From Auricularia sp. M13 (Eukaryota > Basidiomycota > Agaricomycetes > Auriculariales > Auriculariaceae), in contig CM073197.1 of assembly GCA_037042915.1 (NCBI GenBank), forward strand, positions 1,240,001 to 1,304,000: a stretch of DNA of 64,000 nucleotides, given 5' to 3'. Every line of letters begins with the position of its first letter. The stretch's first letter is position 1. The position numbers were made by a program, and so were the translations under genes. Under the pieces are notes generated by a model. That model searched no databases. It saw only the letters and a list, made by a program, of their open reading frames with translations, and was not told the origin of the DNA. This document shows, piece after piece, positions 10,105 through 54,288 of this stretch.

Positions 10105-11105
10105 TCCGTGACCTGGTCGCTGATCAGGAGAGCAAGGCGGCCCCCTTCGCGGGATGGACGCTCTTTATACGACGGATCTGAGCGCGGCGGAAGAGCTACG
10201 GTACTCTGTACGTGACTATGTCATCAATCCCTGCCTGGCTGTAATAGGGGAGCAGCCACGCGACTGACCTCGCACCCGACACTACCAAACGCGGCCTGCT
10301 GCGACCCGGGAACCCGCCTGCGCTGAGAGAACAAAAACGGGGAGCGTCGGATGTCCAAATCGAGCTCGTTGTCATGTGCGATGCCGCGAAGCTGATGTGG
10401 CGGTTCCACCTCGAATGCACGACGGTCGACGCCGGCTCATCGAACGAATCCCCGCCGCCGCCCCTATAATCATACATAGCCGGGGAATTAGGGACCCTTC
10501 CCGGCGTATGAGTCGCAAAAGGGCCATTATGCCCAGCCTCCCAAGTGCACATGTTTGACTCTCACCCACCAGAAGCCTCGGTTGAACGCCGCTCAGCGCA
10601 TAAACTTGTAGAGAGCACCCTAACTGGGGATCCGCCATTGTGGCGATCCGATCCCGTGGTTAGCACCATGTAAATCCAGGTTGCCGAAGACGCCGGCGGC
10701 GGCGATGCACAGGCAAAGCCGACGTCATGCTATATGGAAAATCTGCTGCAGGGATGTGCAGCAAGGCTCTGCGTCGTGTACCGGTGGTGTAGTGTGGTAC
10801 AGGAGTGAAAGCGCTCACCCTCAATTCCATCCTTCCGAGACGTCGAGGTGAGATGCCGCGGATCGTCGCGAGCCTCGGTCAACGACATCCGGAGTGTACA
10901 CCGGGTATCTCCACGGGAACCATTATATAACCCGCGAGTCAAAGTCATGTGGGAAGAGACTTTCCACGGAGAAGCAGGGAAATGTTTCTTCGTGAACTGT
11001 ATTGACACACATTCAATATCGTGGCCTGACAGGATTGATGAAATCCTCGAGGCAATTGATAAAGCTCGAAAGCATAGATGCACATAAATTAGCGCCTTTC
11101 TCCAT
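10105..11105. other. Intergenic region, no gene supported
   Basis: Short frames exist on both strands but none shows a domain, a sensible splice pattern or a clear start. It contains the kinase promoter on the left and the tRNA upstream region on the right. Confidence 0.5.
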
Positions 11106-11178
11106 GGGCGTATAGCGCAGTTGGTAGCGCGCCTGTTTAGCATACAGGAGGTCTCCGGTTCAAATCCGGATTCGTCCA
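11106..11178 (+). tRNA. tRNA-Ala (anticodon AGC)
   Basis: A 73-nt cloverleaf reads directly: acceptor GGGCGTA, D arm with AGTTGGTA loop, anticodon stem CCTGT/ACAGG with loop TTAGCAT (anticodon AGC), T arm TCCGG-TTCAAAT-CCGGA, and discriminator A. There is no intron. The acceptor has one T-T mismatch and one G-T pair. The same sequence occurs inverted at 24087-24159. Confidence 0.95.
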
Positions 11179-11957
11179 CAGCCTTTTAGTTGTAATTGGT
11201 ATTGAGAGTCCCCAGATTCTTGTCGAAGTCTGCAAATCGCAGCTATCGCTTTTAACGATTTCATGTGTATGGGGCCTTCTCCATGTGCGTGTCAATGTGT
11301 CTGCCTTTTGATATACATAAATATCTCATTGAGAGGGCTGCAATGGAGGCTCTCAATGATTTTGGCTCGTCGGGAACACTGTATCAAGTCCAAATTCCAT
11401 GTGCATTGTGGGTGTCCGGATAACCATGGGAGCCCACGTGAAGCTTACAGGACGACAAGTACTGTATAAGAGATATGAAACAGACGCTCGATGTGATCAG
11501 TAGTACTGCTAGCGCACAATACACGTAGTAAGAACGCCAGCGAGTCTATAACCTCCAAATAGAGTACGTAGGGATCTCTCAGAGCGCTCTGTGTCTTATT
11601 TCACTGTATGAGGTAGGTGATAGCATCTACCGAGAGATCTCGTCCTTCAAGTTACAGCAACGCATTGGCAACGCACAGTGAATCAGATCGCTGCAGTCGA
11701 CGATCGCAACGCAGCGCGCAGACGGCGTCTGTTCAGGCTGAGCGAGGCGGTTCTATCGGTTAAAGACATGAAGGTGCAGTGCCACGTCCGCCCTGCGAAT
11801 GCATGGCTTGTGAATCTCAGGTCTAAGGTAATTCTGGCGGAGACTCAAGGTCACGTGCGCCGATCACTTTGGGGGTCTGCAGCGCGAAACGAGATTTCGG
11901 CGCCTCCCCCCCGGAAGCTTCCGACTACTGTCCTTGACCTCCGCCCACGACCATCTC
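11179..11957. other. Intergenic region upstream of Tra1
   Basis: No coding signal is supported. The right part should contain the Tra1 promoter and 5' untranslated region. Confidence 0.5.
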
Positions 11958-23566: not shown

Positions 23567-24086
23567 TCTTTCAGCGTTGTTGGGCTTTCGGCTTTCCTTT
23601 CTTGTTTGCTCTCGGTCTTCGCTCCGCCTGTCTGGAAAAAACTGCTCCGAAATTTGTGATTCCTCGCTGATCCTGAACTGTATCATGTACCGCTACCGCC
23701 TGTAGACTTTTGCTCACACACATTGCCGTGCTATCGACGCTTTGTTTTCCCAGCTCCGATTCTTGCAGTTGCTTCGTACGCGGCATCAAGACTGTCTTTC
23801 ACATTTGCGTTAATTCGGGGTAGCTGGCTATGGTACAGGATAACTTCAGCTGTGCTACAGCATGCAATGTTCCTATGCTCCTACTGTATACTATAAGTCA
23901 TTTGGGTGGTACGCATGTGTGCCGCGGACGTGGACGTATCGGGCCTTGGCAAGGTTATTGAGCAAAATTTATGCCCAAACCCCTCGTTACCCACAATACT
24001 TACGCGCGCGCGTGTACGTCTGCAACGACACCAGGTTAGAATGATTCTTGTGACTGAATGGAATTGGTAGGGGAAAAGGAAAGATG
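23567..24086. other. Intergenic region after Tra1
   Basis: Probably the Tra1 3' untranslated region and flank of the minus-strand tRNA. No gene is supported. Confidence 0.5.
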
Positions 24087-24159
24087 TGGACGAATCCGGA
24101 TTTGAACCGGAGACCTCCTGTATGCTAAACAGGCGCGCTACCAACTGCGCTATACGCCC
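24087..24159 (-). tRNA. tRNA-Ala (anticodon AGC), second copy
   Basis: The exact reverse complement of the tRNA-Ala(AGC) at 11106-11178, with the same stems and anticodon loop. The identity extends a few bases beyond the mature ends (CAT before and CA after). Confidence 0.95.
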
Positions 24160-24249
24160 ATGAATAAAGAATGGGGGGATGAAGTATCATTCCTTTAGTA
24201 ACTCTGAGTACGGTATCAAAATACTCATAGCTCTTTTTTCCTGCAACAT

Positions 24250-40287: not shown

Positions 40288-41093
40288 GGTAGCAGGGAGT
40301 ACGACGAGTTGAATCGTTCAGGTCAAGGGTTGTCCAACGTATTTGAGCCTCCCACGGTGGCTCAAGTGAATGGAAGCACCAGGCTGGGGATCGCGCATTC
40401 GAGTTTTAAGCGTCGCGCGGTCCGCTTTCCCCGGCCGTGCCATCCGGGCCTCCGCACCGAGAAAGACGCGAGCACGAGTTCCCACGCACATGGAATCGAG
40501 GCTGGCTTGACCATGGCCGGGGCCCGCTTGAACACTGTAACCCGTAATAATACGCCTGACGCCGTAGCCGATATTTCGGCTCTTCGTATGCGTGTTCACC
40601 AAAAAAATTGACAGAAGCAGCAGCGCGCACTGGCAAACGCTAATCCAGTTCAAGAACCTTGGACTGAGTTCCCATGGCGTCATATCCGTGAAGCCGGTGT
40701 CTTCCATGCCCAGGAGGCCCTTCAGCTTCTAGATAAAGACGGCAGGGACGGCGGCCTGCCGAGCAAGCACCACAGATATTGCCCTAGTCTCGCCGAAAGT
40801 GGATCCGTGTTCGTCGTTATTTCGAGTAAGCACATGAGCCCGTGACGGATCCATGGGGCTGCACGCAAGCAAGCGAATCGAGAGTTCGAAGGACCGTCAG
40901 GCACAAAAAGACAGCACGGGACACCAAGATTCTAAGAACGCCCAAGTAGCAATAGATTTTGAATGCAGGGCCTGTAGTCTGAAAGAGTGCACTCGGCAAG
41001 AGGACTGTGTCGCAGATTCAGAAGGGCCAGAAGTTGGCGGCCGTTGACAGTGGCAACCTTCGGAAACTCGTCAGTACTCGGACTGCGACGACC
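40288..41093 (-). other. Region left of the retrotransposon with a weak minus-strand ORF
   Basis: A minus-strand frame from about 40707 to 40318 begins MEDTGFTDMTPWELSPRF and contains one hydrophobic segment (VCQCALLLLSIFLV). A TCTAG acceptor just upstream could add KLKGLLG to its start. I do not recognise it. Smaller frames further right could be earlier exons or chance. It may be the remains of a small gene next to the insertion. Confidence 0.25.
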
Positions 41094-41108
41094 GAAATGA
41101 ATCAAACT
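41094..41108. repeat. Left copy of 15-bp target-site duplication
   Basis: GAAATGAATCAAACT, identical to 53927-53941. The right copy begins directly after the poly-A tail of the LINE, exactly where a target-site duplication is expected. Confidence 0.8.
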
Positions 41109-41608
41109 GGTGGCGGCTTCGTCCGGTACCACCATGTACCATTAGCTACACCAGCTGAAGCACACAGAACGCCCCTCTTTCTTTTCGTCTAATTAGAGAT
41201 GAGCGGGAAGATATAAGTGCCAAGAGAATGGCAGCCCAACTCTGACCACAGAGAGGAGCAGCGACTGCTATATTCCAAAACTGCCGAATAGGGCGGTCAA
41301 CGTTATCTTCGTATGGTCCTGTGAACCGAAGCAGGATGCCAGGGTGAAGCATATCTTTCATAAGCACAGAACCTAGAGTACAAGCTCGGGCTGGGCCCCG
41401 CAGGACAGGCGACGGTGCCCATACTTAGGGCGGATGAGCGAACTGGCAGGGACCCCACGACGAAACTATCAGCACCTGGCTGCGAACTAGCGCAGGTCGG
41501 ATACGTACGAGGACTCAGATCGTAACCCAGCGGGGCGCTCCTGCGGCGAATGTGAGCAAATGGACGGCGGCGAGCTCGAGCAAAATCAACGAACCAAAAA
41601 TCGGCCCG

Positions 41609-41848
41609 TTAGTCCCGGGCGTTCACCGCCACTGGACCGATATAGACGCCGAGTGCGGCGATCACGCGAAAGATGAGGATGAGAACGAGCAAGAACGCGA
41701 CGGCGTTGGCAAATGTGAGTAGGCACTGTAGAACGGTGCACATGGTGCACTCGAGATCGACGACGTCGATAGTGGCGAAGGGTCCGAGATCCTGAATTCT
41801 CCTAACATCAGCGGAAACTGGGCCGCGCGCGCTGCACATAGCACGCAC
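41609..41848 (-). CDS. Weak ORF with one hydrophobic segment inside the element
   Basis: A 79-codon frame with a membrane-like stretch (LLTFANAVAFLLVLILIFRV). No family is recognised and its orientation is opposite to the LINE genes. It may be chance; listed because it is the only strongly hydrophobic frame in the upstream segment. Confidence 0.2.
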   Translation of the reverse strand: MRAMCSARGPVSADVRRIQDLGPFATIDVVDLECTMCTVLQCLLTFANAVAFLLVLILIFRVIAALGVYIGPVAVNARD

Positions 41849-43062
41849 CCGGCAACAGACGTCGCAGGTGCAAGCGGCTGGAGGTCCTCCAGCGTTGCAA
41901 TGCGCAGAGCCGCAAGGGACGAGGCGGTAAATTCGGACGTTACGGCCGTAGCGGCACTAAAATGGTAGTGTGAGGTTGGAGACCTGGCGAAGGGAAGCTC
42001 AGACGCACCTTGCACGCCAGAGTCGCATGAGAGCTGCGAACGTTGAGCTGGCAACAGAGACGAGTACAGAAAAGACGCACGAATAGCGGTTGCACATCGT
42101 GGCAAGGGAGAATGTGGGCGCAGTGAGAGTTCCACGCTGCGTGAGGCGAACTTTATGGGCGGACGCCCGCCTCTTGCCGCATTGGCACGCGCTGTCGCGC
42201 ACGTCGCCGCTCAGGCTGAATGCCTTCTGGCAAACGCGACAGCGAGCAAAAGATTGAATGGATCCGGCATCTCGGATCCCCGACAGACTTTGACGACAGG
42301 CACAGCATCCCCCGATCCAGAGCCCGCGCCGGCCCACCGGGTCAGAAGCAAACGCTGCTCCCACAACCCTGGAGCGTGCACGTGGGCTGACGTGGCCAGA
42401 GAGGACACGTATGCGCTGACGCGCCGCGACCGGACGTCGGAACCGGCAGCCCCTCCGAGCCCCCGCGCAAGGGGTCGACCGAACGACCGGAAAGGGCTCG
42501 GAGCGCAGGTCCGTGCGCACGCCCCGACCTCGTCCGCCCGCGGAGGTAGCGCGCTGGCCAGGCCGAACCAGGCATGTACGGTCGGAGTGCCGGACGCGGC
42601 ATGGTGGCCTTGAGGAGCCGCGAACGTGGACGCGGTGCGCCATTCCAGTGCTCTGGGCTCGGCTCCTCGGACAGAGCTGTACGGGAACGAACGTACCGCC
42701 GTACCCCAGGGATAACGTACGAGGGCAACCAACAGCCTATGACGAACATAACGGTGATAGCACAGCGAATAGCGCGCGCCAGCGACATACATATCATACC
42801 CGAAGAGCAGGATTAGGTATCAAGTCTGCCGTGAAATTTGAACATGCGGCGTACCTGAACGAGGAATGGAATACGTTCCGAGGATATAGGCCACGATCAC
42901 ATGAAGCGGAATATGGCGGTACGCGGAGATCTTCGCGGGAAGGACTCGGCGAATACGCGACGGATAATATTGATCCGGAAGCAGAAACTCCGCTTAATCC
43001 CGACGTGGAGGGTCGGAGTACGGATAGTTTAAAATCCACGCTACGGGTACGAGAGGAGTAGC

Positions 43063-43090
43063 ACGCCAGGTGGACCTAGCCACCTGGCGT
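43063..43090. repeat. Perfect 11-bp inverted repeat with 6-nt loop
   Basis: Arms ACGCCAGGTGG (43063-43073) and CCACCTGGCGT (43080-43090) are exact reverse complements, separated by ACCTAG. It can form a strong hairpin. It lies just after a TAG stop of a plus-strand frame (42513-43061) inside the upstream segment of the LINE block. Confidence 0.7.
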
Positions 43091-43685
43091 AAGCAAACCC
43101 AGGCCCGGCACCTGTGGCTGGAATACCAGCAGGTGCGATAGATGTCCTATGCCGACACGCACGGCGCAAACGGTCCACGCACAGCGGGCATTCGTACCAC
43201 TTGTACACCGACGGACTCGGCGACTCGGAGAACGCCCGCACACAAGGGGATCGGATGCCAACAGTGGGCGCAAAGCTGGCCGTGACGTGCACGTCAAAAC
43301 GCCCAGCGCCTAAAGCAAGCAATATAAGAACACACGGCCGGCGCCGGTGGTGAAACCCAGAACCCACACACACCCCGCGACGCAACGAAGCAGAGCGGAA
43401 TGCTGCAGGCAACGTCCAGGGGGTGCCAGGTGGTCAGAGCCTCGGCGAAGCCCATCCCCATACAGCCGACGCCTGCAGATATGACCACGCACCTCTTCTT
43501 CCTGCCACAACCTGACCCAGGATGGCGCGCACCACCTCCCACGCCGGTGTCGGACGAGTACGCGACTCACTTCTTCCTGCCGGCGCATGCCAGTGGTAGG
43601 TGATGGTACATAGCCAGGCTGGAGAATAACAACTACCCCAGCCCCCTCTAGGTCGACAAACAATAGGCCAAGGAGAAAAAAGGAC

Positions 43686-43958
43686 ATGGAAACGACACAT
43701 CCAGGAATCGATGCGCAAGATGGCATGGACAAGCAGCGACAGGCCAAACGCAGGTGGAGGTGCGAAGGAGGATGCGCGAAGTCCTTTAGCACTGCACACA
43801 CGCGTGACCAACACTGGAAGGCGTACGCGAGCTGCGAGGAAAGACATGCAGAGTTCGTGCGCGGCACGGCAGGATGGGAGGAATACTGCGACTCGCTCCG
43901 CCGCCGCATCAGGAAGATAGGTCACCCGCCGAGGAAGAGCCGTCCACATGCCCGATGA
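43686..43958 (+). CDS. Small zinc-finger-like ORF upstream of LINE ORF1
   Basis: A 90-codon frame, METTHPGIDAQDGMDKQ..., very basic. It contains a finger-like core with Cys and His spaced C-x3-C-x12-H-x6-C (RWRCEGGCAKSFS, then TRDQHWKAYASC). The first half fits a C2H2/C2HC finger; the last spacing is longer than usual. It is followed by WEEYCDSLRRRIRKIGH. It lies in the same orientation as the LINE ORFs about 1.1 kb before ORF1. It could be an accessory ORF of this element or the relic of a nested one. Confidence 0.4.
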   Translation: METTHPGIDAQDGMDKQRQAKRRWRCEGGCAKSFSTAHTRDQHWKAYASCEERHAEFVRGTAGWEEYCDSLRRRIRKIGHPPRKSRPHAR

Positions 43959-45058
43959 TGAGATCACTGGAGGGCCGCACGCGCCGGCAGATTATCTGAG
44001 TAATGTAGCGCAATAATGTATATCTGCCGTCGGTATCCACGGGCAGCAAGTCCACGACCCAAGTCACGTGCAGTGCTGAGAAGCGCTCTGAGCGGGAGCA
44101 CACCAATCCGCGCCAGATCAAGATAGCCGTCTCCCGCTCGACCGCTCGTCGTCGCGTAATGGACGCACTCGGCGACACGACAATACCGAGCAATCTTGTC
44201 GGAAACGCCAGGGTATCCCAGTTATATTCTCCCCATAATGTTGGCAGAGTCCACGTCTGGCCGCTGCCAACACCGCGCTCGGCGGCAGCCTATGAGCACA
44301 CTGCGACTCATCTGCAGCAATGCTGGTGCTTGCCCGTGCCATATAAAATACGGGCATCCAAAGCTCCCAAGCTCAGTGTCTTGATCCACTTAAGCCATGA
44401 CGAATTCATAGGCCCACGAATAGCCTAATTCTGCCGGGCATGTCACGCTGAAAATATGAATAAATCGTCGTAAAGAAGTTCCGCCCTCCAACTTCCCAAT
44501 GATGTGTACAAAAGGCGGGAAGCAGACAAGTATAAAGATGCAGCACTCGAATTCTAAACCCCCTCGTAATACTGACACGTGGACCTCTTCGGGGGATGAT
44601 GTCAAGCGGCCCGGCGGCCTGGTCTAGCCCGTGGCCGCTGACACCGGACAACGCGGTCCCGGGGCCCCAACCCGGATGCGGAGTGTCAATTTTGGTCACA
44701 TCCCGATTTGGCCCTCCCCCAGCGTGCGCGCCCCGACTTCGCCAAGCGACAGCGGGCGGGCTGATACGCAGTATCCCAAGCAGATGCGCCCAACCGAGGA
44801 AGTGCGGACAGGCCACCCTCCCATCCAATCAGACTGGAGCTTCAAGCTAATCGTACGCGACGTAGTGCGTCCGGCCCGGCGAACGACTCTACCGGGGTCA
44901 GCAGCGCGCCCAGTATCCAGGATAGCGCGCGCCCAAACCCTGAGCACGCAATCGGACAGATTGGGCTGTCGCAGCATGGAGACCTCGGACCTATTGTAGC
45001 CCGAGCATAAAGTACGTCCGCGGCCCACAAAATACATACACCCAAAAATCCCAAGGTC

Positions 45059-47557
45059 ATGAACAAACTGACCGAAAACAGGTTCCAGCCGCTCGCCCTC
45101 GACGTGTCAGACCCCGACGACCAGCAGACGAGCATGGAGAAGAAGCCCAGCCGCGCCAAGGACAAACGCGCTGCGTCCTTCGGCGGCACCTCAGCCCGCC
45201 CTAGCCTGCAGGACTTGGCGGAAGTGGCCCTCAACGAACGTGCCGCGGCCACCCTGGACGAGCTCCGCAAGGTGGCCTACAAGCAACCTGCGCCGCGCGG
45301 GCAGGTCCGCAAGCACAAGGAGCTCGCGCCGGACGGCACTCCAACGGCCGACCGTACCGCGCGCACCGAACGCTAGGTGCGTGCTCGCGACTCGATATCG
45401 TCGCTCGATGGCCATGGCGCCGACGAACCTGCGGAGGAGCACATTCGGGACGAGGCGGACGCCACCGTGAAGTGCAACGACGCCATTGATACACAAGCGG
45501 GAACGACGGGCGAAGTGCGTCCTGTATCGACGCGGCAGCACGTCTTAGACGAGACCGCGGCCTCGTCTGTGGTAGCGACGCCCGCGTTCGCTCCGGCATC
45601 GAGCCTGGCGCAGGAGAACGCCCGCGCCGCGGGGAGCACCACCTTCCTGTGGCCGAAGGTATGCAACGCTCGTTACCACGAGGAACTTGAACCCGTTGCT
45701 AACGAGAACGCGCAGCCCAAGTCCACGGCCGCTGCCACTGCGGCCCAGCCGGAGCGCGGACGGCCTCTGGCGGGTCGCCCTCCTAATCGCCCTCCACTCC
45801 TTGGCATGGTGCCAGTCGGGAGGGCCGCCTCAGCGGATGCTGCCCGCCCTTTCAAGCCGCCGCAGTTGCCCATCCGAAATGACCGGCGACCGCAGACAAA
45901 GACGGTACAGTCCTTCGACGTCGACGAGGGAGTATGGCGGCCCCTCACCCAGACCATCCCGTCGGAGGACCCGGACAGTTTGGGCACCACGTCGATGGAT
46001 ATATCCCCGCCCCCGTCTCTCGTCGCTGGCCTGCACTCCATCAAACAGGAGGACGACGACGCAGATTCCTGGCTGCACACGAATCTGGGCAACGAGGGAG
46101 CGGAGTACTCACCACCTCCCTCCCCGACGGATGCCGCGCTTGGCCTACGCCGCAGCCACCATTGAAGGGCGACCAGTGCGCTGTCAGGTTTCACAGACCA
46201 ACGCCAAGAGGTCGCCGCGAGCCCCATAGAAAGAGGACGTACCGCCCGTCCTGACGCGGCGAACCGCCAGGGAGAGCAGGGCGCGGCGAACGCGCCAGAG
46301 GTGCACTACGCGCAGGAGCACGGCGGCGACGGCTTGTCCGACGACGAGGCGGACATGTACGTTGACGACGCGCCTGAGCACGGCATCACGCCGGACGCCG
46401 AGCTCTCCGACAACGACGTCGACCTCGACGATCAGGAGATCGAGGATGACCTGGTAGCCACCGAGGAGGAGCGGGCGATAGCGAGCGAAATCGACGCTAT
46501 CTTCGGCAGCACGAAGGTGCCCATGCGCGCAACGGCGCGCACCGACGACGTTGTCGACGGCTTCACGGCGGGCTCGCACTGGACGGGAGTCGACCCCGCC
46601 TCGCTCGCAGAGTGGGCCAGACTTGACACGGCGAGCTTTGGCGTCCGCGTTCACAGTGTCGACGGTGACACCGCAGTCGCGAGCATGAACCATGTGCAAC
46701 TTAATATCGATCTGCAGAACACCATCAGGAGGACGGAACCAGGAAGCGAAGCGCTCCTCGCACCAGGACGCGCAGCGCCAGGAGCGCCGCCCGCCATGCC
46801 CGGCATCTTCCTCGTGTACAACGTCACGCTGGCAACCGCGCGAGCGTGGACCAGTCGCCAGTTCGTCCACGTCGGACGCTACTGCCTGCTCGTATTCAAA
46901 CGTGTGCACGGCGACTCAACTTTCGTCGGCACGTGGGCGGAATCGACGATGCCATGCGAGAGACTCCAGGAGGGCCTGAAGGAGAAGTGCAGGAAGGCAG
47001 GCAAAGTTCGCGCGGTCTTCAAGGACGTCGAGCGCACGGCCAAGGGCCAAGGACGCAAGGCGTATAGGCGCTTCCTTGACTCCATCTCAGTACGCCCGCT
47101 CACGATCAAACCACGCGGCTCACGGGGGGTCGAGGTCGTCGAATACAACGTGTACACGGGCGACATAAGGCACGAGCAGGTGAGCGAAGATGGCACAATC
47201 GAGACGGTCTCACTGTCCTCCGAACGACGCCGCCTCCTTCACGAGGCCATGCTCGAGCTGCGCGTACCGGACGCCTTCCACGGTGCGGCAGTCCGCCGCA
47301 GCCCCAACCTCGTCCAGTATAGTTGCGGCATCTGTAAGGCGTCGTCGCACCCACGTGGCAAATGCCCGGCGCACACGATTCCCACGTGGGACCGCCCCGT
47401 ACGCCGACCCAACAGCGAGAAGCCGTCCCGTGGTCGCAATCAGGCGCCGCCGAGCTCCCGACGTTCCCCGGGTCCTCCTCGGGCAGGTGGCCAGCAACAA
47501 CAACGGGGCACACGCGCCGGCCCAGGCGCCAAGAACCGCGGGGGCCGCCAGACTTAG
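45059..47557 (+). CDS. LINE ORF1 (nucleic-acid-binding, zinc knuckle), two in-frame stops
   Basis: An 832-codon frame starting MNKLTENRFQPLALDVS, expected to coat the element RNA. The same frame stays open throughout except for TAG at 45374-45376 and TGA at 46163-46165; no frame shift is needed. The N-terminal half is Ser/Pro/acidic and disordered. The C-terminal half is folded-looking (RAWTSRQFVHVGRYCLLVFK) and ends with one CCHC knuckle, CGICKASSHPRGKC (C-x2-C-x4-H-x4-C), and a basic Gly/Arg/Gln tail. Both stops could come from a single C-to-T change (CAG to TAG, CGA to TGA). Alternatively, the first stop could separate a short leader ORF. Confidence 0.7.
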
Positions 47558-48273
47558 ATGGCGGACCTGGCCAGCACACAGGCGCATGGCGACCGGCGTG
47601 CGAGGCTGATGTCTATACCCTCAAGAAAGTGCTGCTCCCCCCCCCCACTCCGACCCTCCTATATGCTATCTCACGCCATGGACCAATTCCCTCCCTCGCA
47701 GCGCTGTAAATACGTCCCACCCCCCGCCCAACAGTTTTAGATATCAATCTTGCCAACGCGCGCCATACACGCACGCGCAGCGTTCCGCCCATACTCTTTC
47801 GCTCTCAACCGCAGCCTGTAGTAATTAGTCGCGCCTGACCTATACAGTCTGCTTTCTGGCATCATGAGCTCGCTGCGAAGGCATGGAATATCAGACCAAG
47901 GAACACCGCGTCCCGGGCGCGGAAGCCATTGCCATCTAACAGTGCATCCAAAATTCTAGTATTCTGAGGTAGGACACACACATTGACGGCCGATGACCTG
48001 TGCTGGAGCGGGGAGGCCGGTCGGTGTACGGGGGGACGGAGCTGTGCACGATCTCTGAGCTAAGTGCCCTAGAAGCTCCCTATATACTGGTCATGCAGGA
48101 AGGAGCTTCGAGGAACGGTGGCCTATTTAGGCCAAGGGCGTACCGTGCGGAGACGCTGAAGTAAATCGCCTGGTGCGGAGTCCGGCCTCTAAACCTGTGC
48201 GACGATACATAGCCCAACGTGCTGGCCGTATGCCAGCTGGACGGCACAGGGGCACTGCCCTGCGATCGTGACA

Positions 48274-51200
48274 ATGTCAGTGCAACCAACTTCAACACAG
48301 AGAAACAACATACACACGGCGAGCTATTACTGGCATGGCATCGAACTCCCCGCAGGCGGAGCGCCAGCCCTTCCCACCGTCGGGCGCGGCGTCGAGGAGG
48401 CCGAAGGGAGTAAGGCAGACGGTGGACAGGAAGATGAGACTCGCGCGTCGGAACGACGGAGCCCAGAAGTGCGCACGCCCGAAAGCTGGCGGCGTGCGGT
48501 GGAGCGCGACAGACTGGAGGACAGCATCGTCTGTCGGGACGCGGGACCCCCCGCAGCGGAACACACACCCGCACGCATTGCAGGGCAGCATGCCCTCCTT
48601 AACAATCTGGCCATCGAGCCTGACCATGGGACACCGCTCCCAGCTGCCTTTGACACGCAGGAAGAGACACGCACGAACATAAGTGCACGCTCTGCGCATA
48701 GCGACAATGAAGCGAGTACACCCGGGCTGAATCCTGATGCCCCGTCAGCGACGGCGAGCGGTGGATCTGACGAACCAACTCCTACGCCACCTAGGCGTGT
48801 GTATGCAGGGAATGCAGCGGATAGTTTGAGCAAGAAGAATACGAGGTCTTACCTCAACGTTGCAACTGAGAATATGCGCGGCCGCGGCGCGCCAAACATC
48901 AGGCAAAGCACGAAATGGCGCCGCCTGGCGGACGACGTCAGGTCACAGAGGATGGGAATCATGGCGTTACAGGAAACCCACCTGTCTGACGAACACGTGG
49001 GCGAAATCCACGCGATGTACCGCCACCTGAAAGTATTCAATTCCAAGCTCCCGTCGAACCCCACGGGCGCTGGGGGCGTGGCGATTGTACTGAACAAATT
49101 GACAACAAATGTTGACTCGGCTGTAAGCTACGAACTCGTGAAGGGACGGGCGCTGCTGGTGAATCTCCAGTGGCACAGGGGTAGAGAGCTAGCTGTCCTA
49201 GCGGTATACGCACCCACAGACAAGCGCGAAAACCTGGCCTTTTGGAAGACTCTGAGGCGGAAGCTACGACCGTCTCGGAATATCCCAGCCCCCGAAATCA
49301 TGATGGGAGACTTTAACTGCGTTGAGGACCCAATAGACAGGTTTCCAGCGAAACTCACCCCAATAGATAACCCAGACTCCCTCTCTACGCTCAGGCGGAA
49401 ATTGCACCTGACCGATGGCTGGCGGGAAACTTTCCCATCCACGACAGAGTGGACCTGGAGGAACCCGAACCGCTCGGCGATGTCACGCATCGATAGAATA
49501 TATATGACGGACGAGCTGAACCGGTCTGCACGAGGGTGGTCGACCACGCTGTCAGGCCTGACAACTGACGATCACAGTCGAGTAGCCGTGGCGGTCATAC
49601 ATGCCGCAGCGCCCGACATCGGGCCTGGAAGATGGGCTATGCAACCCGCGCTGGTGAGGGATAAGATGTTCATGACTGCTGTCAACAAGATGGGCCGAGA
49701 GGCCGCCAGCGAAATAAACCGAATAACACGGTCAGGTAGGACACCGTCCGAAAACCCGCAGCGAGTCTGGCAGAACCTGAAGAACGAAATCGGGACGCTG
49801 GCGAAACGTCGCTCGCGGGAGATTAACTGCGCGCGTAACACAAGACTGAAAGCGGCAGTAAAGGAACGAGCAGCCCTGCTGGAAGAGAATGGCAAACCAG
49901 GATTGGAACATGGGGCAACAGATTTCGGAGCAAGACTGCGCGCAGTCGAAAAGCGTATCACTGAAATACGCGAGCACACATTTTCGGCACGCTTGCAGGA
50001 CAGGTCAGCGAGGAACTGGGCGGAAGCTGAGACAATGAGCAAAAACTGGTTCAGGTGGCACGAAGAAGTCAAGCCACGTGACACAATAGTGGCGTTGCGC
50101 CAGGACGGCCAGACACAGGAGTACACGTCAGACTCAAAGACCATGGCAAGGGTGGCACGGGATTACCACGAGAACGTGCAGAGACGAGACCTGGATGTAG
50201 ACGAGCTGGACAGGTCGGTGCAGATCGAGAACGCGCTGAATCATATTTCAAGGGCTTTGAACCCGGAAGATGCTGAGCGGTTCGATGCAGAAGTTTCCCG
50301 CGTAGAAGTGAACGAAGCGCTGAGTGTGTCGAAGAACGGCTCTGCGCCAGGCCTGGATGGCCTGATATACGAGTTCTGGAAAGAACTAAATAGGAAGTTC
50401 GAGGCGGCCAAGCGGAACGAAGAACAGCCCTTCGACGCTGTGGGTACGATGACTGCAGTTTTCCAGGACATCGAGGTCTATGGTGTCGACGAATCCACGT
50501 CATTCACGGATGGATGGCTATGCCCGCTATATAAAAAAGGTGAACGTAGTGACATCGCGAATTACCGTCCGATTACCTTGTTAAACACCGACTACAAGGT
50601 GTATACGAAGACGCTAGCTCTAAAACTAGCGACGGCTGCACCGTCGATTATTCATGAGTCCCAGGCTGGATTCGTAAAAGGCAGAAGCATCACTGACCAG
50701 ACAAAACTGACCAGCTTGATCCTGAACTACGCCGAAGTAAGAGAGGAGAACGGCGCCATTGTCGCCCTGGACCAGGAAAAAGCATACGACCGCGTACGGC
50801 ACGACTATCTGTGGCAAGTGCTACACCGTTTTGGGCTACCTGAAAGGTTTGTCGAAGTAGTAAAGGCGTTATATCAAGGGGCACGCACTTCGGTAATGGT
50901 AAACGGCCACCTCAGTAAACCGTATGTTGTGACGAGAGGTGTCCGACAAGGAGACCCTCTGTCATGTCTGCTGTTCAATCTCGCCATTGAACCGCTATCA
51001 GCGATGCTTAGATGCTCAGCCCTGCGAGGATTCATGCTAGACGGACTCACCGAGAAACTAATCGCAACACTATATGCGGACGACACGACGGTATACCTGG
51101 CGGCGTCGGACTCATACGAGCTACTGCACTCGATCCTCGGTAGGTGGTGCCTCGCCGCTGGAGCAAAGTTTAATGTCCAGAAAACGGAAATCATCCCAGT

Positions 51201-53718
51201 CGGTAGCCCGGCATACCGAGCAAAGGTAACGGAGACCAGAAGGCTGACCCCAGACGGACCGGCACTCCCAGAACAGGTGCGCATTGCGCGAGATGGAGAA
51301 GTGACACGGATACTAGGCTCATGGCCTGGTAATAACGTCGGCGTCGTAGGGGCGTGGTCAACGCTCCTGGACCGAATAACGACGGTACTGAAAGGCTGGG
51401 AACGCTCACGCCCGTCGTTGAACGGTCGGAGCATAATATCACGAGTGATCATCGGCGGGCATACCCAGTTCCTGACAGCAGCGCAAGGTATGCCCCAGAG
51501 CGTAGAGCGCAAACTCGACAAGATCACCATGCGGTTCCTTTGGGCAGGCGCACGACGCCACCCGATAAACATGGAGACGTTGCGAAGGGCCCGTCACGCG
51601 GGAGGGTTGAACGTTCTGCACACGGAGGAACGCAACGAAGCCCAATACTTAGCATGGGTAAGCGCATACATGGCGCCAGCGAATACCCGCCCAGCTTGGG
51701 CCTTCATCGCGGACTACCTTTTCAGCGCAGCCATCATTGCAGCACAACGCACGCGAGTACCAGTGGCCCAGCGCAGGAATGTGTTCTACCAGGACTGGCG
51801 GCCGAACGTGGCGAAGCTCCCGTTCATGCTACGGCAAATGCTACGCACAGCACAGAAATACGACGTGGTGCTTGACGCCCCCCTAATACCGATGCGCCTG
51901 CGCGAAAAATGCGAAGTATGGTCGCACCCAGCGCTCGCAGACAAGGAGATCCTCTCCAAGAAACAAGGGGCACTGAAATGTCTACGGGAACGACACGAGG
52001 CCTGCACGGTGGAGGATCTCGAAGAGATCGCAGAGCTGGACGAACCAACGCACGTCGGTAGGCGCGGCTGCAGATGTGAGAACTGCAGGACAGATAGGGA
52101 AGCTGGCTGCCGTAACCCACACAGATGCCAGCAGCTGGCGGAGGACCTTCTCAGCAGCATTGCGGAGAAATGGAACACGTCCACGTGTGAACAACTGGCA
52201 GACACGCAGGCATGGGATGAGCTCTACCCGTCCAGAGCCTCAGCTATCCGCTCAGGGAAGCCCATTGCCTTTGACGCAGTTACAGAGCGAGCAGAGACGC
52301 CGGAAGAACTATGCCGCGTTTTTGCAGGGACCTTAGCGATGGTTGGCGGGACGGCACAGGATATCGTGAGACGCCCCGCGGGAGTTCGCCAGGCGCAACA
52401 AGCAGCGCCCCGACCGGCACGAGCGATAGTATGCGCAGGCATGCACGCAGCGGAAACAGACGGCGCCCAGGGAGGCTTCTCGATACACTTCCCGGGAGGC
52501 GAGTATGACGACCAATATCACAAGTGCGTTGGCCAGAGACAGACGTACTTGAGGACGATGGCCATCGCCCTATGTATCGCAGTACGCACGGTACCAGCCC
52601 ACGTCGAGCTGCACATCACGATGCCGTGCAAGTTGTTGACAGAGGCATTGACGACGGAGCGGCGCAGATACGAGGCGAAGGGCTGGTGCGACCTGCACGA
52701 GAATGCGGACATCATGAGGACGACGGCGGCTGCCCTACGCTCCCGTTCCGCGGCAACCATCTTTGTACACGTTGCTAAAGATCAAGTGAGCAAGTCCCAG
52801 TTAGTGAAGGACAACGTTGCTCGTGCCCAGACAGCAGCTCTATGGGGCCCGGTGCTCGAGTGGAATCCGCTGGAATGGGCGGCGTACGACCTCCCGGGCC
52901 TCTCGGTGCTAGGACTGACGCAACGGACGGCTCACAGAGCGATTAAACTGGCGAAGCTGATATCAGCGCCGGTCCGGAAGGCGACAGGGAAGATGATAGG
53001 AAGAGTCAAATCTGACATAGCTGACCTTGGGGAACCTACTCCTACGACCGAGCAGCTCTGGTCGGGTCTGGCCAGCAGAGACGTATCGCGCGCGGCCAGA
53101 GTCTTCTTATGGAAAGGCCTGCACGACGCGCACAAAGTAGGAAGCTACTTCTCGAAGATGCCTGAGCCGTGGTGCGCAAGGGCATTATGCCCGCGATGCG
53201 GGGTACTGGAAACAATTGAACACGTGCTTACGGAGTGCCCTGAGTCTGGTCAGAGCACGGTTTGGAGCCTGGTAAGGCGCTTCCTAGCACGCAAACAAAT
53301 ACGCGTGGAAATCAACCTCGGCACTATTCTCGGCTGTGCAAGCGTGCGCCCCGAAGGCACGTGGGGCCAACGCCCGAAGGGCCTCGCACGGGCGTACAGG
53401 ATAGTAGTATCTGAGTCCGCATTACTCATTTGGAAGCTGAGATGCGAGCGACGAATAGAACATGGCCAAGACCAGAACTGGTCGCTCCCTCCCGAGCAAA
53501 TCATCACACGTTGGAAGTCGGTAATAAAAACGCGTGCTGTCCAAGATCGACAATTTGCCAATAGGTATAAATATGGGAATAGGGCTCTGGACGAGGGCAT
53601 CCGATGGGAAACCTGGAGAGATAACCTGAACCCGACCTTTTTCCCGAAGAATACAATGAAAGAGCAGCCCGGAGTTTTAGTGGGTACGGGGGAGCAAATT
53701 GCGCAGGGCGTCGGTTGA
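48274..53718 (+). CDS. LINE ORF2: APE endonuclease, reverse transcriptase, RNase H-like, zinc motif
   Basis: An uninterrupted frame of 1,814 codons; the first ATG is at 48274. After a disordered leader of about 190 residues, the APE endonuclease has NVATENMRGRG, LQETHLSDEH, MMGDFNCVEDP, SRIDRIYMT and TTDDHSR. The reverse transcriptase (about residues 690-990) has NYRPITLLN, GFVKGRSITDQ, VALDQEKAYDRV, GVRQGDPLSCLLFNL and the catalytic LYADDTTVYL. An RNase H-like region (from about residue 1385) contains GMHAAETDGAQGG and HVAKDQVSKSQLV, but the usual acidic residues are not all clear. Near the end is a CPRCGVLETIEHVLTEC motif (C-x2-C-x8-H-x4-C). All visible endonuclease and polymerase motifs look intact. 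Confidence 0.92.
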   Translation: MSVQPTSTQRNNIHTASYYWHGIELPAGGAPALPTVGRGVEEAEGSKADGGQEDETRASERRSPEVRTPESWRRAVERDRLEDSIVCRDAGPPAAEHTPARIAGQHALLNNLAIEPDHGTPLPAAFDTQEETRTNISARSAHSDNEASTPGLNPDAPSATASGGSDEPTPTPPRRVYAGNAADSLSKKNTRSYLNVATENMRGRGAPNIRQSTKWRRLADDVRSQRMGIMALQETHLSDEHVGEIHAMYRHLKVFNSKLPSNPTGAGGVAIVLNKLTTNVDSAVSYELVKGRALLVNLQWHRGRELAVLAVYAPTDKRENLAFWKTLRRKLRPSRNIPAPEIMMGDFNCVEDPIDRFPAKLTPIDNPDSLSTLRRKLHLTDGWRETFPSTTEWTWRNPNRSAMSRIDRIYMTDELNRSARGWSTTLSGLTTDDHSRVAVAVIHAAAPDIGPGRWAMQPALVRDKMFMTAVNKMGREAASEINRITRSGRTPSENPQRVWQNLKNEIGTLAKRRSREINCARNTRLKAAVKERAALLEENGKPGLEHGATDFGARLRAVEKRITEIREHTFSARLQDRSARNWAEAETMSKNWFRWHEEVKPRDTIVALRQDGQTQEYTSDSKTMARVARDYHENVQRRDLDVDELDRSVQIENALNHISRALNPEDAERFDAEVSRVEVNEALSVSKNGSAPGLDGLIYEFWKELNRKFEAAKRNEEQPFDAVGTMTAVFQDIEVYGVDESTSFTDGWLCPLYKKGERSDIANYRPITLLNTDYKVYTKTLALKLATAAPSIIHESQAGFVKGRSITDQTKLTSLILNYAEVREENGAIVALDQEKAYDRVRHDYLWQVLHRFGLPERFVEVVKALYQGARTSVMVNGHLSKPYVVTRGVRQGDPLSCLLFNLAIEPLSAMLRCSALRGFMLDGLTEKLIATLYADDTTVYLAASDSYELLHSILGRWCLAAGAKFNVQKTEIIPVGSPAYRAKVTETRRLTPDGPALPEQVRIARDGEVTRILGSWPGNNVGVVGAWSTLLDRITTVLKGWERSRPSLNGRSIISRVIIGGHTQFLTAAQGMPQSVERKLDKITMRFLWAGARRHPINMETLRRARHAGGLNVLHTEERNEAQYLAWVSAYMAPANTRPAWAFIADYLFSAAIIAAQRTRVPVAQRRNVFYQDWRPNVAKLPFMLRQMLRTAQKYDVVLDAPLIPMRLREKCEVWSHPALADKEILSKKQGALKCLRERHEACTVEDLEEIAELDEPTHVGRRGCRCENCRTDREAGCRNPHRCQQLAEDLLSSIAEKWNTSTCEQLADTQAWDELYPSRASAIRSGKPIAFDAVTERAETPEELCRVFAGTLAMVGGTAQDIVRRPAGVRQAQQAAPRPARAIVCAGMHAAETDGAQGGFSIHFPGGEYDDQYHKCVGQRQTYLRTMAIALCIAVRTVPAHVELHITMPCKLLTEALTTERRRYEAKGWCDLHENADIMRTTAAALRSRSAATIFVHVAKDQVSKSQLVKDNVARAQTAALWGPVLEWNPLEWAAYDLPGLSVLGLTQRTAHRAIKLAKLISAPVRKATGKMIGRVKSDIADLGEPTPTTEQLWSGLASRDVSRAARVFLWKGLHDAHKVGSYFSKMPEPWCARALCPRCGVLETIEHVLTECPESGQSTVWSLVRRFLARKQIRVEINLGTILGCASVRPEGTWGQRPKGLARAYRIVVSESALLIWKLRCERRIEHGQDQNWSLPPEQIITRWKSVIKTRAVQDRQFANRYKYGNRALDEGIRWETWRDNLNPTFFPKNTMKEQPGVLVGTGEQIAQGVG

Positions 53719-53893
53719 CCCCTCTCCCCAAGCCCCACACTGTCTACATGAGACGTGCTAAAGGCGATTTCTCCGGGAGGAGTCACTCCCATAAGGTGCG
53801 GGTTAAATCCCGCCCATCAAGCTCCTGCAACGCTGTTGCAAAAGGTTTGCCGACGCTCCACTGTGTGATACCGTCGTCAGGCCGATGCTCCGC

Positions 53894-53894
<1 letters not shown>

Positions 53895-53926
<32 letters not shown>
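53895..53926 (+). repeat. Poly-A tail of the LINE
   Basis: 32 consecutive A residues at the 3' end of the element, directly followed by the right target-site duplication. Confidence 0.95.
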
Positions 53927-53928
<2 letters not shown>

Positions 53929-53941
53929 AATGAATCAAACT
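53927..53941. repeat. Right copy of 15-bp target-site duplication
   Basis: GAAATGAATCAAACT, identical to 41094-41108. Confidence 0.8.
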
Positions 53942-54288
53942 CCGGCGTTGTTCGACTATGGGCCCTTGTCATTCCCGCAACAATATCTTTCGATAGTTTT
54001 GTCTGGCGCCGAAGTGAAGCTAGCTCCCTGAAATGTAAACGGAAATTATTCACATTGGGTTCAAATACGAGTACATGGCGTGCAATTTTCACTTCAGCAA
54101 AATACCTTTCACACGATGATTCATTCGGGCTCCAAATCCCTCTCGTGGCATAGATAAGCTTTCACACGTCCAGGGATATGGACCTCGAATGAATCATCGC
54201 GATTGAATGGGATTTTGCTAAGGTAAGCGCTTTTCGAGTGAGCGGATGAGAGGCTTAGCTCATATGGCCCGCTCTTTTGGTTCTTGAT
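53942..54288. other. Region right of the retrotransposon
   Basis: Old host flank of the insertion. A minus-strand frame from 54092 runs leftwards to the insertion point; see the findings. No clear gene is supported. Confidence 0.35.

Follow-up and report, generated by a model that had tools for sequence, protein, structure and literature searches.

Is the unusually long DNA between two identical short repeats at this locus a single retrotransposon insertion, and if so, what does the additional sequence encode? Fungal elements of the Tad type measure about 7 kb. We examined this question in a window of 64,000 nt from Auricularia sp. M13—the whole stretch of DNA that was analysed, corresponding to C5:1240001-1304000 of a 52.1-Mb, 14-contig genome. 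The preliminary description of this DNA had proposed that a perfect 15-bp duplication, GAAATGAATCAAACT, at positions 41094-41108 and 53927-53941 frames the insertion, and this reading was borne out: the window contains only these two sites even with up to two mismatches allowed, and the right copy begins directly past the 32 A's at 53895-53926. The accompanying argument that a chance pair of 15-mers is unlikely also held, as two matches arose in none of 100 dinucleotide shuffles (mean 0.06). Moreover, identity between the two copies ends at exactly 15 bp on both sides. The AT skew amounted to 0.13-0.34 in all 13 of the 1-kb bins covering 41001-54000, and it reached 0.13 or more in just four of the 51 other bins, which were isolated and had a top value of 0.19. 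Since the skew is high throughout 41001-54000, both halves of the element share one strand-biased composition. When this one assembly was searched with 220 bp of joined flanks, only the two flanks of this insertion were matched; no empty site was found, and a paralogous empty site was rejected as a candidate.

The class of the element was assigned from ORF2, the 3' end and the termini. ORF2 gave Pfam matches to RVT_1 (8e-36) and Exo_endo_phos (5e-11), aligned with human LINE-1 ORF2p structures over query residues 171-1093 (E 6e-49) and also matched R2 RT structures, while neither Pfam nor PDB profiles matched RNase H in ORF2, where an RNase-H-like look was discernible by eye only. No long terminal repeats were evident, i.e., no direct repeat of at least 30 nt occurs in the window (seed 14). 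A-tails and target-site duplications are general LINE traits. By the features tested—APE together with RT, an A-tail with a duplication of variable length, and no LTRs—the element is an APE-type LINE. Most copies have a GACGCTCC-type end before the A-tail, and the window copy has GATGCTCCGCC; by analogy, the conserved 3' ends are reminiscent of the 3' stem-loop of stringent-type LINEs. The 3' ends of L013-L038 displayed a conserved CACTATGTGATT-like stretch and, in most copies, a TGACGCTCC end before the A-tail.

Relatives of the window ORF2 are present in the same genome in at least 25 copies (26 of 222 candidates were scored, the window copy itself included). The 25 scored relatives are 49-58% identical to the window ORF2, with 24 lacking a stop inside the match, and the seven nearest share 55-58% amino-acid identity with it. 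Several lineages among these relatives seem to be single or low copy. Upstream DNA was read for six of the seven nearest relatives (all except C11:934335), and their 5' boundaries were located by searching upstream for the 3' flank that lies past the A-tail, which gave one perfect match per element. These relatives, termed EA to EF, are listed in Table 1 together with the features of the window copy; with the latter they make up the seven elements compared below.

Table 1. Features of the window copy (window positions) and location of the six relatives read (contig positions).
Feature	Position	Strand	Remarks
Left target-site duplication	41094..41108	.	15 bp
Whole LINE	41109..53926	+	12,818 bp; extent from relatives and AT skew
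5' terminal motif common to 7 elements	41109..41178	+	predicted hairpin GGUA/UACC, two-sided changes (GGAA/UUCC)
Predicted antisense exon 4	41609..41791	-	with stop, hydrophobic C-terminus; acceptor picked from three AGs
Predicted antisense exon 3	41849..41956	-	108 nt, Cys-rich
Predicted antisense exon 2	42009..42033	-	25 nt
Predicted antisense exon 1	42081..42097	-	17 nt, ATGTGC start
Antisense TATA-like CATAAA	42152..42157	-	~60 nt upstream of antisense ATG
ORF0	43686..43958	+	90 aa, zinc-finger-like, C-x3-C-x12-H-x6-C-x3-H; from frame conservation
ORF1	45059..47557	+	CCHC-bearing; two in-frame stops in window copy
Predicted ORF1 intron 1	45659..45715	+	57 nt, GTATGC...GCTAAC...GCGCAG, in frame in window copy
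ORF1-ORF2 spacer	47558..48273	+	716 nt
ORF2	48274..53718	+	APE-like endonuclease, reverse transcriptase, weak zf-RVT below cut-off; open; first ATG 48274
3' untranslated region	53719..53894	+	first part matches 3' ends of other copies
Poly-A tail	53895..53926	+	32 A
Right target-site duplication	53927..53941	.	15 bp
EA	C1:4680601-4693275	-	15-bp duplication, 12,675 bp
EB	C4:843410-855296	+	14-bp duplication, 11,887 bp
EC	C5:3439284-3450928	+	13-bp duplication, 11,645 bp
ED	C1:4868159-4879691	-	14-bp duplication, 11,533 bp
EE	C11:1873326-1884782	-	19-bp duplication, 11,457 bp
EF	C8:2848274-2859764	+	16-bp duplication, 11,491 bp

ORF1 has a CCHC motif near its end, and a 463-aa part of it gave no Pfam match. 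The two stops in the window copy are a TAG at 45374-45376, a position with a Trp codon in EA and EC-EF and an Arg codon in EB, and a TGA at 46163-46165; because of them, this copy has probably lost its autonomy. The ORF1 frame of EB-EF is interrupted, in a region common to these five relatives. A GT...AG stretch of 47-57 nt lies at the homologous place in all seven elements (intron 1), and a second one of 46-50 nt occurs in EC-EF, i.e., in four of the seven (intron 2). With these stretches removed, ORF1 forms open frames of 817-851 aa in all six relatives, as against one of the six (EA) when left unspliced; in EC-EF, 173-302 residues were not fetched, and the frame is reported to be open over them. 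Within coding ORF2, such an intron of the right length class occurs within 25 nt at 0-2% of places per element, an estimate based on splice criteria chosen after the introns had been seen. Intron 2 is also less alike between elements (0.62-0.65) than its flanking exons (0.70-0.78). ORF1 seems, on these sequence features, to carry one or two conserved introns of the spliceosomal type, although splicing is not forced in the window copy and EA, since intron 1 is a multiple of three there. The breaks in EB-EF could alternatively stem from decay, through frameshifts and stops, or from programmed frameshifting, considering that single-copy lineages can decay and that stops are present in the window copy; we judge this unlikely, however, in view of the recurrence of GT...AG stretches at homologous places in 7/7 and 4/7 elements, with lengths (modulo three) that fit the frame, of a frame that is open downstream and of an ORF2 that is open in all seven elements. 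If the introns are real, the RNA that was copied would have been unspliced, because A-tails and duplications mark these copies as retrotransposed. Downstream of ORF1, the ~220 nt of the spacer just before ORF2 are conserved (70% to EA), and the spacer may hold an internal promoter or a translation signal.

The leader up to ORF1 is 3.95 kb long in the window copy and 2.6-3.9 kb in the relatives. It appears to contain two genes that the preliminary description had not mentioned, ORF0 on the sense strand and a gene of four exons on the antisense strand. Between element positions ~300 and 1000, protein frames on the minus strand were better conserved than those on the plus strand in the EF/ED, EF/EE and EA/EB comparisons, the exception being W/EA (W denotes the window copy), with 37.7 bits for the plus frame vs 35.8 bits for the minus frame. 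A full four-exon antisense model fits W, EB, EC, ED, EE and EF, with a start of the form ATGTG[CT], exon sizes of 17/25/108 nt in five of the six modelled elements (11/25/102 in EC) and GT-AG introns of 47-57 nt. Some donors are weak (GTACAC in EB intron 1, GTTCGT in ED intron 2). For intron 3, the acceptor had to be picked from two or three AGs in five of the six. In EA, an ATGTGT start and exon 3 are visible, and exon 2 could not be placed. The predicted proteins are 84-110 aa long and cysteine-rich, with a hydrophobic C-terminus; in the alignment of exon 3 from the seven copies, eight positions do not vary, and Cys occupies five of these. The antisense ATG is preceded, at a distance of 44-62 nt, by a TATA-like box, which reads as a plain TATAA in only three of the six elements (ED, EE and EF); for W, EB and EC, looser patterns were adopted once those sequences had been seen. 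A motif scan over the seven leaders called no sense leader intron and returned 17 nested matches on the sense strands vs 53 on the reverse complements—an excess that fits the antisense gene.

Substitution patterns were also compared. The antisense gene had dN and dS values of 0.07 and 0.64 in ED/EF, 0.22 and 1.07 in EE/EF and 0.22 and 1.43 in ED/EE, and among these pairs pN/pS was 0.16-0.33 in the coding frame vs more than 1 in shifted frames. The distant pairs EC/EF, EB/EC and W/EB, with dN 0.63-0.67 and dS 1.3-1.7, gave a weaker selection signal. Similarity of the coding sequence amounts to 83% in ED/EF and to 71-73% in the EE pairs, and that of the antisense introns to 60-70%, vs 56-58% for shuffles. 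These comparisons show selection acting on the predicted antisense gene in the closer pairs, and its predicted exon-intron structure is conserved in six of the seven elements. The same region could instead be a non-coding DNA or RNA control region, conserved on the sense strand, of which the antisense frame is a by-product: a promoter is expected in the 5' region, the TATA-like boxes are loose and the plus frame scores slightly higher in W/EA. Against it stand the constancy of exon sizes next to introns that are barely more alike than shuffles, the low pN/pS confined to the coding frame in the ED/EF/EE pairs and the invariant, Cys-rich residues kept over seven copies, which together make a non-coding origin distinctly unlikely. 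A genome search with the 36-residue exon-3 query (E <=10) yielded 10 matches, the weakest with an E of 0.005; seven are the source elements of the query and three are new (C12:212628, C6:334563 and C7:2511275). In a comparison by hand, each of the 10 was placed 1.1-2.0 kb upstream of an ORF0 match and in antisense orientation relative to it.

ORF0 itself corresponds to the best-conserved sense stretch of the leader, window 43686-43955, a 90-aa frame with counterparts at the corresponding place in EA (E 3e-16) and EB (E 3e-23); in EB, the match extends beyond the stop of the frame, which comes a few residues earlier, and the N-terminal part in EE is without an in-frame ATG. The genome search with ORF0 produced 88 matches at E <=0.1, 82 of them without an internal stop. 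Of these 88, 38 lie 1.4-3.7 kb upstream of an ORF1 match on the same strand and none is wrongly oriented within 6 kb, compared with a mean of 0.27 and a maximum of 3 under random placement (1000 runs). Likewise, 48 have a LINE-type RVT_1 within the next 12 kb downstream, with no case on the opposite strand and two with the RT upstream (random placement: mean 0.67, maximum 4 in 500 runs); guessed lengths were used for two contigs in the random runs, and the smallest contig was left out. Viewed from the other side, ORF0 precedes 39 of 50 ORF1 matches, 22 of 26 ORF2 matches and 45 of 59 LINE RTs, the last being a set of at least 59 with a match length of ~650 bp chosen among the 150 scored of 348 candidates. 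Most of the LINE copies scored in this genome have an ORF0 upstream. In ED/EF, its dN is 0.22 and its dS 1.37, and shifted frames have pN/pS values of 1.2-1.3; judged by this pattern, ORF0 is under purifying selection. Zinc binding is putative and read from the motif. No Pfam family was matched at cut-off (four pieces were given, one of them a wrong 27-aa stretch), and no confident fold was obtained, the single-sequence model having a pLDDT of 61. Neither ORF1 nor a LINE RT is near 32 of the 88 matches. Four ORF0-like frames (C1:3432164, C4:2587657, C7:119575 and C9:904093) have identical scores, and three of the four have no LINE RT within 12 kb downstream; they perhaps represent a different mobile unit with the same zinc finger.

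The predicted introns raise the question of which RNA is copied. LINEs are expected to lose sense introns on copying, since their template is processed RNA. One alternative is that the element copies antisense RNA or uses another intron-sparing route of the kind suggested for Penelope-like elements; the predicted sense introns survive, and an antisense template is one published idea for Penelope in the available part of PMC3846280. We consider this highly improbable, given that all seven elements have their A-tail at the sense 3' end, immediately ahead of the duplication, as for priming on a sense poly-A RNA, and that the antisense gene keeps its introns too, which a spliced antisense template would lose. 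In the mechanism that we favor, sense RNA starting at 41109 would serve as the template, with part of the sense RNA being spliced to give ORF1 while the copied RNA stays unspliced. An antisense promoter near 42.15 kb would direct a spliced mRNA reading towards the 5' end of the element, and its product would be a small Cys-rich protein with a hydrophobic tail that is perhaps membrane-anchoring. ORF0 would act as a nucleic-acid-binding or regulatory accessory protein, and ORF2 would nick the target and copy the RNA by target-primed reverse transcription. Both transcription and splicing of the element are steps that we infer from its sequence.

Whether the left part belongs to the element was decided at its 5' end. 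All seven elements open with a motif that is roughly GGAGGCTTnTTCCGGTACCATCAnnTACC, EA and EB being the most divergent, and the predicted hairpin has modest support from two-sided changes at three of 10 pairs. A search with a strict 5'-end pattern recovered EC, ED and EF only, and no known RNA family, ribozymes included, was matched up to an E of 10 in 41080-42300. Elsewhere in the genome, 41109-45060 is matched at just three places, over 114 bp at most; one of these, at C10:2460251, corresponds to the 5' terminal 62 bp of the element (81%) and is followed on the same strand by an ORF0 match and a LINE RT. The preliminary description had further claimed that 41109-53926 entered as one unit, and the relatives agree with it: all six have an A-tail, a perfect duplication of 13-19 bp and a homologous far-5' end. 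Counted with the window copy, they represent seven independent full-length insertions. The comparison of 5' ends in other copies that it had recommended gave the same answer, with all six relatives read starting at this far-5' end and none near 44-45 kb. Its other suggestion, i.e., that the unusual length might come from later insertion into a LINE, was not sustained, as the relatives measure 11,457-12,675 bp with the same far-5' end. An ordinary LINE of ~8 kb starting near 45 kb, adjacent to or nested within an older, unrelated element at 41-45 kb and with the duplication flanking the composite, is scarcely credible: the left part has no other near-identical copy in the genome and the long ORFs with known domains all lie right of 45 kb, but the six relatives have a common far-5' end and perfect duplications of their own, the gene order of the left part recurs in them, and a composite or nested insertion in 41-45 kb is refuted for the six relatives read. 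Tandem or long repeats were rejected as the source of the length, none of note being present, and no relatives were confirmed in viral contigs. Very probably, then, 41109-53926 is one full-length LINE that arose when a full-length, polyadenylated sense RNA was copied by target-primed reverse transcription. Its clade comprises elements of 11.5-12.8 kb in which the antisense gene (-) is followed by ORF0, ORF1 and ORF2 (+).

Known systems offer partial parallels. Primate L1 has a small antisense ORF0 in its 5' region, with its own promoter. The antisense gene predicted here is likewise a small antisense ORF in the 5' region of a LINE, with a TATA-like box as part of a putative promoter; in contrast to the L1 case, it has four exons within the element and encodes a Cys-rich, hydrophobic protein kept over deep divergence. 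No homology to L1 ORF0 is claimed, and the sense ORF0 of the present elements is a different thing. Tad1 ORF2 contains an RNase H domain, and the ORF1 of the clade is of the I/jockey type; a type I ORF1 combines an RRM with CCHC. Tad1-clade LINEs resemble the present elements in having an ORF2 with APE and RT and an ORF1 with a CCHC knuckle, and differ from them in that the latter are 11.5-12.8 kb long, with an ORF0, a predicted spliced antisense gene, predicted ORF1 introns and no RNase H found—a comparison of architecture. In the available parts of the sources, Tad1 is placed among elements with a type I ORF1 (PMC4120745) and RNase H is given for the LINE I superfamily (PMC4641428). Penelope-like elements of bdelloid rotifers also include low-copy-number retroelement copies with a spliceosomal intron, and the part of PMC3846280 available to us describes the dispersal of intron-containing genes as distinguishing Penelope from every other type of retrotransposon. 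According to the same part, those elements have a GIY-YIG endonuclease and terminal repeats, whereas APE, an A-tail and no long repeats were found here. The plant Retand LTR elements (PMC11963269, TRP28 ORFs) share a conserved antisense accessory gene and an unusual length for a retroelement, yet, as far as the available part of that source goes, they are LTR elements with the gene near the 3' end and another protein domain. The titles and abstract openings searched in openly licensed literature revealed no LINE whose ORF1 retains introns or whose antisense gene is spliced, and no precedent for the combination of features.

The element is a LINE, but a new and elaborate variant. To our knowledge, it would be the first LINE to combine a multi-exon, conserved antisense gene with a dedicated zinc-finger ORF, features that bear on how LINEs gain accessory genes. 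We would put at about even chances a broader model in which this LINE clade works like a complex retrovirus—with unspliced RNA as genome and template, regulated splicing to give ORF1, a sense zinc-finger accessory protein acting on the RNA or DNA of the element itself, a spliced antisense Cys-rich membrane protein that tunes element or host, and introns kept as a rule. If a LINE clade has indeed kept introns through seven independent insertions, it would allow a direct test of whether spliced or unspliced RNA is chosen as the template. In practical terms, repeat annotation expecting elements of ~7 kb could truncate the present ones at ORF1 and mistake their 5' genes for host genes.

Several further observations concern the wider family and the surroundings of the insertion. 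A distant family copy of ~10.1 kb at C8:1447244-1457370 (L030/L041) has an 11-bp duplication, is without an ORF0 match and is apparently 5'-truncated. The insertion in the window is neighbored on one side by a minus-strand gene of the DHDPS family (39.2-40.15 kb) and on the other by a plus-strand frame (54.6-55.8 kb) with weak Tudor matches below cut-offs. Additionally, two tRNA genes of the window (11096-11185 and 24080-24169) form 90-nt inverted arms that are 96% complementary and 12.9 kb apart.
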